Shown: positions 8,646-9,103 of the stretch, one piece after another
How positions within the stretch are numbered: position 1 is the first letter of the stretch
Layout: each line of letters starts with the position of its first letter
Virus record (IMG/VR): IMGVR_UViG_3300035156_000206
Location: 1 to 64,000 of that record
DNA from: a virus
Length of the DNA: 64,000 nucleotides
Strand: one strand, 5' to 3'
Program-made: the position numbers and the translations under genes
The notes under the pieces: model-generated
Database searches by the model: none
Told to the model about the DNA's origin: nothing
What the model saw: only the letters and a program-made list of their open reading frames with translations

Positions 8646-8662
8646 GCACTACTCCTTAAAAT

Positions 8663-9059
8663 GGGTCCCCCTTTCGATGACAGGGACTAGTGAACCTTTC
8701 GGCTCAGTAGCGGGGGATTATTTCAACCCTGCAAAGTTAGTTAGGCGTAAGCCGCTACTTTGAATTGTGAGTCGTTTGCATTTACATGCTTGCATCTTTT
8801 CGCCTTACGGCCGAGGATCGCTTCTCGTGTTGTCAACCTACGGTTATCTCACCACGTCGAAACCAGGTCGCCCCCATCAGCTGCACTTTCAGGTCTATGT
8901 CTGGTGTACCAGTCCTGAGAATTGATGTTATCTCATCTTCGAAAGCGCAGTTGGTGGAGGCGGCGGGAATCGAACCCGCGTCCGCAATGCCTTCACTTTG
9001 GCATCTGGATAGGTCTTACCCTACCCCACAACAATGTATCCGTTGATTTCTCAACTGAT
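8663..9059 (-). ncRNA. ssrA: circularly permuted (two-piece) tmRNA
   Basis: The acceptor part comes first: it ends GCGGACGCGGG-TTCGATT-CCCGC-CGCCTCC-ACCA, finishing at 8952. Then come 76 bases (8876-8951) whose ends pair (CTGC.CTTTC/GAAAG.GCAG). The coding piece starts at 8875 with GGGGGCGACCTGG, the conserved GGTTTCGACG follows, and GGGGGCG pairs with CGCCTCC of the acceptor piece. Coding GTAGGTT also pairs with acceptor GACCTAT (P2). The tag reading frame starts at 8779. A CCCCC/GGGGG pseudoknot near 8725 and 8668 closes the coding piece. The order proves permutation; the mature pieces should be about 8663-8875 and 8952 to about 9035. Confidence 0.9.
8741..8779 (-). other. tmRNA tag reading frame ANDSQFKVAAYA
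   Basis: The resume codon GCA follows TGTAAAT and the frame reads ANDSQFKVAAYA then TAA. The AND start is typical of proteobacterial tags. The end AAYA differs from the usual ALAA, whose last residues are what ClpXP and SspB-type degradation recognise. Confidence 0.85.
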
Positions 9060-9065
9060 GAAGCC

Positions 9066-9094
9066 ATTATATAGACTTCTTCAGTTGAAGTCAA
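9066..9094 (-). promoter_or_regulatory. tmRNA promoter
   Basis: TTGACT and TATAAT, 17-bp spacer; expected start near 9059, about 24 bases before the acceptor piece. Confidence 0.9.
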
Positions 9095-9103
9095 CAGTTA
9101 ATT

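Follow-up and report, generated by a model that had tools for sequence, protein, structure and literature searches.

A phage-encoded, circularly permuted tmRNA whose tag ends in Tyr-Ala, and the recurrence of related tag endings among phages

A 64,000-nucleotide stretch of a viral record (hereafter the window) carries a circularly permuted gene for tmRNA, which releases stalled ribosomes and tags their incomplete proteins for degradation. The gene is very probably a working one, and its tag ANDSQFKVAAYA ends in AAYA instead of the C-terminal Ala-Ala of canonical ssrA tags. Endings of this type, with Asn or Tyr before the final Ala ([N/Y]A), recur in phages and are almost absent from bacterial ssrA, and they provide a direct handle on why phages carry tmRNA. 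On balance we favor a functional two-piece phage tmRNA that is used with host SmpB and adds a tag that is likely a poorer direct substrate of ClpX, so that viruses may be altering the cell's disposal of tagged proteins.

Identity and anatomy of the tmRNA gene

ARAGORN called a permuted tmRNA on the minus strand of the window (Table 1). An earlier note on this DNA had proposed a phage-encoded, circularly permuted tmRNA, a reading that covariance models, comparative pairing and phage context all bear out. In the covariance search that the note had suggested as a check, the merged permuted Rfam model RF04321 matched with 108.1 bits (E 4e-20), above its curated cut-off of 47. RF01850 (beta_tmRNA), the clade model listed for the window gene among the older clade models, matched at 8678-9087 with 79.8 bits, slightly below the family cut-off of 84, and by that cut-off the gene falls outside the betaproteobacterial family; the same model gives scores of 103-147 for seven relatives or other phage tmRNAs.

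As the note had described, the 3' tRNA-like piece, with the T-arm and an encoded CCA, precedes the GGGGGCG piece, and the two are separated by exactly 76 nt whose ends are predicted to pair. The 7-bp acceptor stem with a G-U third pair, the P2-like pairing and the GGTTTCGAC core are all present across the split, and a resume site leads into an in-frame tag with its stop codon. The intervening segment of the window tmRNA itself contains no ORF. Folding of a 471-nt region gave z = -6.1 relative to shuffled sequences. A chance resemblance to tmRNA was ruled out by the covariance score, this z-score and the covariation described below.

Table 1. Features of the tmRNA locus, in window coordinates
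Feature	Position	Strand	Remarks
Permuted tmRNA gene	8650..9044	-	ARAGORN, outer ends approximate; RF04321 match 8747-9011
3' tRNA-like piece: P2-like stem 3' strand, T-arm, acceptor 3' strand, encoded CCA	8952..8990	-	
76-nt intervening segment, 11-bp helix from paired ends	8876..8951	-	Helix from predicted fold; same architecture in 11 family members
5' tRNA-like piece: GGGGGCG acceptor 5' strand, GGTTTCGAC core, P2-like stem 5' strand	8849..8875	-	
Tag frame ANDSQFKVAAYA and TAA stop	8741..8779	-	Resume codon GCA
Hairpin TGAGCC-GAAA-GGTTCA	8691..8706	-	After tag; predicted fold
Sigma-70-like promoter TTGACT-17 nt-TATAAT	9066..9094	-	Upstream of tmRNA; 11/12 matches
58-nt hairpin	9040..9097	-	Overlaps promoter, upstream of tmRNA; predicted fold

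We compared the window gene with eight other permuted tmRNAs bearing [N/Y]A tags. The tRNA-like domains of these nine tmRNAs align without gaps, and the 19 pairs of the acceptor, P2-like and T stems are maintained in 99.4% of cells. Both sides had changed in 10 of the 19 pairs, a count reached by none of 500 shuffles, and no slid register came near the observed pairing. All nine have G-U as the third pair of the acceptor stem, an established alanine identity element. Among 11 family members, the intervening segments range from 25 to 209 nt and differ in sequence, with ends that are predicted to pair each time and, in most cases, a short TGAT-like linker after them; such predicted paired-end segments of variable length fit a conserved precursor architecture. 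An atypical T-loop (GGCAGT-type, not TTCGA) was seen at four loci with [N/Y]A tags (L165, L167, L177 and L178).

These comparisons also bear on whether the gene could be a captured or decaying copy of a host ssrA that has no function in the phage. Although ssrA is an integration site and its fragments occur in prophages (PMC9004378), the window gene has kept all its stems, its CCA, its tag frame and its promoter-like site intact, covarying with its relatives from other phages, and its tag type is nearly absent from bacteria, which makes such an origin highly improbable.

The phage and the expression of its tmRNA

The source record is linear, 292 kb long and may be incomplete. Genes for nucleotide metabolism and for a tail sheath, baseplate and tape measure identify it as a jumbo myophage. 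Its tail sheath shares 41-43% identity with the sheaths of XacN1, CM1 and PA5oct-like phages, and no close relative of the whole phage was found among named records. Neither CM1 nor the PA5oct-like phage PAC2 gave an RF04321 match. SmpB and SspB were not detected in the 292-kb record by searches whose bacterial controls were positive, so that host factors would be needed, with the reservation that absence from a linear and maybe incomplete record is not proof. A ribosome-rescue operon around the tmRNA was considered and rejected, as the flanking ORFs encode only a SprT-like protein and unknowns. The 18 ORFs neighboring the tmRNA had no homologues in the other loci compared.

A sigma-70-like site lies upstream of the tmRNA (Table 1). 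The 64-kb window contains 31 near-perfect sites of this kind (at least 11 of 12 matches), against 0.3 expected; the site at the tmRNA is therefore one in a series of phage promoters resembling strong host sigma-70 promoters. These sites span positions 482-43667, mostly within the first 35 kb, and occur on both strands. Judging from the promoter-like sequence, the tmRNA would be expressed early.

Tags ending in [N/Y]A recur among phages

The earlier note had singled out the YA ending as unusual. The ending is real and unusual, but it is not private to the window phage: scans aimed at the tag ending, whose patterns fixed some of the conserved tag positions, returned recurring 12-residue phage tags of the form A-N-D-x-x-[F/Y]-x-x-A-[A/R/S]-[N/Y]-A in 18 distinct DNA sequences (for example, ANDAEFKVAAYA, ANDANFKVAANA, ANDSQFLLAANA, ANDDTYLLAANA, ANDSTYLIAANA and ANDDTFLLASNA). 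Most of these come from uncultured phages, together with Xanthomonas phage X1 and a prophage-like region of Massilia, and a tmRNA core sequence precedes each of the 18. One tag-ending scan placed no constraint on length or on residues 6 and 11, and the permuted tags ending in AAxA that it returned were again 12-mers with an aromatic residue at position 6 and N/Y at position 11; the same scan also returned one-piece tags ending in AAAA. Two scans of viral contigs targeted the tRNA-like sequence instead of the tag and yielded about 30 distinct permuted tags, a tally that includes a few loci obtained in other ways, and most of these tags end in AA. Three divergent phage permuted tmRNAs (L100, L105 and L110) carry tags ending in AAAAGR, which also depart from Ala-Ala.

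The codons of positions 9 to 12 differ synonymously among the [N/Y]A tags, which points to selection on the peptide. The YA of the window was judged to be neither a private mutation nor a sequencing error, since AAYA or AANA occurs in independent contigs with synonymous codon differences. Several [N/Y]A tags read as a 10-residue tag of betaproteobacterial type (such as ANDSQFALAA) followed by N/Y-A. From the codons, AAYA could have arisen in one step through loss of a stop codon, TAA to TAC, and the [N/Y]A ending probably arose more than once. We found no report of this tag family in the open-access literature searched.

[N/Y]A tags are nearly absent from bacteria

The motif was present in 2 of 399 Burkholderiales genomes (a Massilia and G101) and in 1 of 399 Pseudomonadota genomes, the latter being the same Massilia genome. 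The idea of YA as a common host habit is thus unsupported by these two samples, in which G101 is the one native exception. A further match resembling ANDSHQSAAYA, in genome G425, was discarded as it lies outside any tmRNA.

In Massilia eurypsychrophila, the motif belongs to a permuted tmRNA at a contig end, beside phage-type helicase, primase, ParB-like and primosomal genes, whereas the bacterium's own ssrA is one-piece and encodes the tag ANDNSYALAA. The host tmRNA and the phage-type tmRNA (permuted, AAYA) of this genome therefore differ in both gene form and tag. With a one-piece ALAA host gene and a permuted AAYA gene in one genome, Massilia makes host and phage tags comparable, as does the cultured phage X1.

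G101, a member of the Burkholderiales, has a single strong ssrA match, a one-piece gene at C1:1485319-1485710 (L184, L203) near genes for a HAD hydrolase, a methyltransferase and gyrA. Its tag, ANDAFFAQAANA, ends in AANA, and five congeners have the tag ANEDVFAQQPALRAA, ending in LRAA. At least one bacterium can thus use AANA as the end of its native tag.

The window gene could then be an ordinary phage tmRNA in which [N/Y]A is a neutral, equivalent degron, small C-terminal residues being sufficient for host proteases and the phage gaining only extra rescue. The case of G101 speaks for this, as AANA ends its only ssrA tag and may be an ordinary degron there, and the AA ending of most other phage permuted tags indicates that a tmRNA can function without a special ending. 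We nevertheless regard a neutral degron as rather unlikely, because divergent phage tmRNAs share the ending but differ synonymously in its codons, while the sampled bacteria almost lack it, and because recognition by ClpX depends on the terminal Ala-Ala (PMC7652416).

A proposed route for tagging and clearance

The tmRNA anatomy points to tag addition by trans-translation with host SmpB. In the mechanism that we propose, the tmRNA would be transcribed as one precursor from an early sigma-70-type promoter, and tRNA-processing enzymes would cut out the 76-nt intervening hairpin, so that two RNAs would remain, joined through acceptor and P2-like pairing. The tmRNA, having the G-U third pair, would be charged by the host alanyl-tRNA synthetase and carried by host SmpB to stalled ribosomes, where A-ANDSQFKVAAYA would be appended and the ribosomes freed during infection. 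Clearance of the tagged chains would depend mainly on an adaptor or on a different protease.

Phage [N/Y]A tags keep AND and an aromatic residue where the site for SspB would be. With this SspB-like front half (AND-x-x-F) retained and a [Y/N]-A end in place of Ala-Ala, tagged chains are most likely poorer direct substrates of ClpX. In published work, ClpX recognizes the tag mainly through its terminal Ala-Ala, and KM rises when the penultimate Ala is changed (PMC7652416); tags that retain AANDENY but bind ClpX weakly at their end require SspB (PMC8512704), as is also the case for DAS+4 tags (PMC8138137). Taken with the kept AND and aromatic residue, these data lead us to prefer a reading in which ClpXP degradation is slowed or depends on an adaptor to one in which the degron is equivalent. 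The suggestion of the earlier note that the YA ending redirects or slows degradation is plausible by this analogy. We more tentatively suggest that A-N-D-x-x-[F/Y]-x-x-A-A-[N/Y]-A is a tag class evolved by phages, in which adaptor recognition may be kept and direct engagement by ClpX blunted. If so, ribosomes would be rescued while the fate of the tagged chains came under the control of an adaptor or of another protease, and the tags would be a natural counterpart of the engineered DAS+4 tags.

Another outcome would be that the tag routes chains to a different protease such as Lon, or leaves them stable, the RNA serving for rescue only. Lon degrades the ssrA tags of Mesoplasma florum (PMC8138137), and the AAAAGR tags indicate that phage tag ends drift from Ala-Ala; the set nonetheless keeps the AND and aromatic front half that fits the SspB-ClpX route (positions partly fixed by the search patterns), and we consider this outcome improbable. 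The earlier note had also raised competition with host SsrA, for which there is a precedent: a tag-less tmRNA-like RNA of phage DS6A was reported to inhibit endogenous tmRNA in E. coli (PMC11915505).

Comparison with known tmRNAs and tags

A 2022 survey listed 53 two-piece tmRNAs among phage genomes, as suggested by ARAGORN (PMC9004378), and the database of PMC11915505 holds 79 phage tmRNA sequences. Phage permuted tmRNAs being already known, the window gene is of a known kind and its tag is the new part. The window gene agrees with the tmRNAs of RF04321 and RF01850 in gene order and tag frame, in having a CCA, an intervening segment and a resume site, and in the pairing of the acceptor, T and P2-like stems; it differs from them in the YA ending, the score below the beta model cut-off and the jumbo phage carrier. 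Phage Melnitz and related marine phages (PMC9004378) likewise encode permuted tmRNAs; however, the gene of Melnitz is of alphaproteobacterial type with a glutamine riboswitch, whereas that of the window is beta-like with a sigma-70-like promoter.

The Xanthomonas jumbo phage XacN1 resembles the window phage in having a permuted tmRNA and a related tail sheath, but its tag ANANTFDYALAA ends in Ala-Ala (LAA) and its record has two tmRNA copies. These copies lie near both ends of the XacN1 record (L220), with a GOLLD RNA downstream of the permuted tmRNA, at a distance of about 1 kb, and two tRNAs with a CTA anticodon upstream. The cultured Xanthomonas phage X1 (OQ427096.1) has a permuted tmRNA with a YA ending and the same last codons as the window tag, TAC GCC TAA. 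Its tag reads ANDADYSVARYA from a resume codon that we chose, the start given by ARAGORN being two codons earlier. The engineered DAS+4 ssrA tags (PMC8138137), in which the adaptor-binding front is kept and the ClpX-binding end weakened, resemble the window tag in how they work and not by family membership; unlike them, the window tag is natural and tmRNA-encoded, and its adaptor dependence is putative.

Permuted tmRNAs were also seen in other settings. Tunturiibacter phage Tunturi_4 (L003, PP885687.1), which infects an acidobacterium, has a permuted tmRNA with a 33-residue tag that directly adjoins a gene annotated as an RF-1 domain release factor (possibly ArfB-like). The Pandoraea oxalativorans conjugative plasmid pPO70-1 (L164, NZ_CP011518.2) carries one whose tag was called as GKNDAFYYEAA. 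Stenotrophomonas phages (L161, L162, L163 and L232) also have permuted tmRNAs, several of them unannotated in their records. Stenotrophomonas is a gammaproteobacterium, in which a one-piece ssrA is expected.

ORFs within the intervening segments of related phage tmRNA genes

Outside the window, we scanned for tmRNA genes with an ORF-filled segment using the pattern GTCCACCATAAG...TAATG, which returned 30 distinct structures whose acceptor strand matches. In at least 22 phage tmRNA genes, where shuffling would give 0.9, a whole ORF runs from just after the CCA to at most 13 nt before the 5' strand of the acceptor stem. The loci include L176, L177/L180, L240, L242, L245, L248, L252/L275/L286, L257/L273, L259, L260, L266, L278 and L283, among others.

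These segment-filling ORFs have 23-133 codons and comprise more than ten unrelated ORFs, among them one for a thioredoxin (PF00085, 75 bits) and one for a CxxCxxCC protein (PF03692). Published mentions of genes or elements in such segments cover a repetitive element and a tRNA gene, and no protein gene (PMC11915505), and we found no earlier report of protein genes there. The same segment ORF was found with different tags, and many segment ORFs end in VSL-TGA, their last codons coming from the conserved 3' arm of the segment. The presence of ORFs within the segments suggests that permuted tmRNA genes are also a site for cargo genes.
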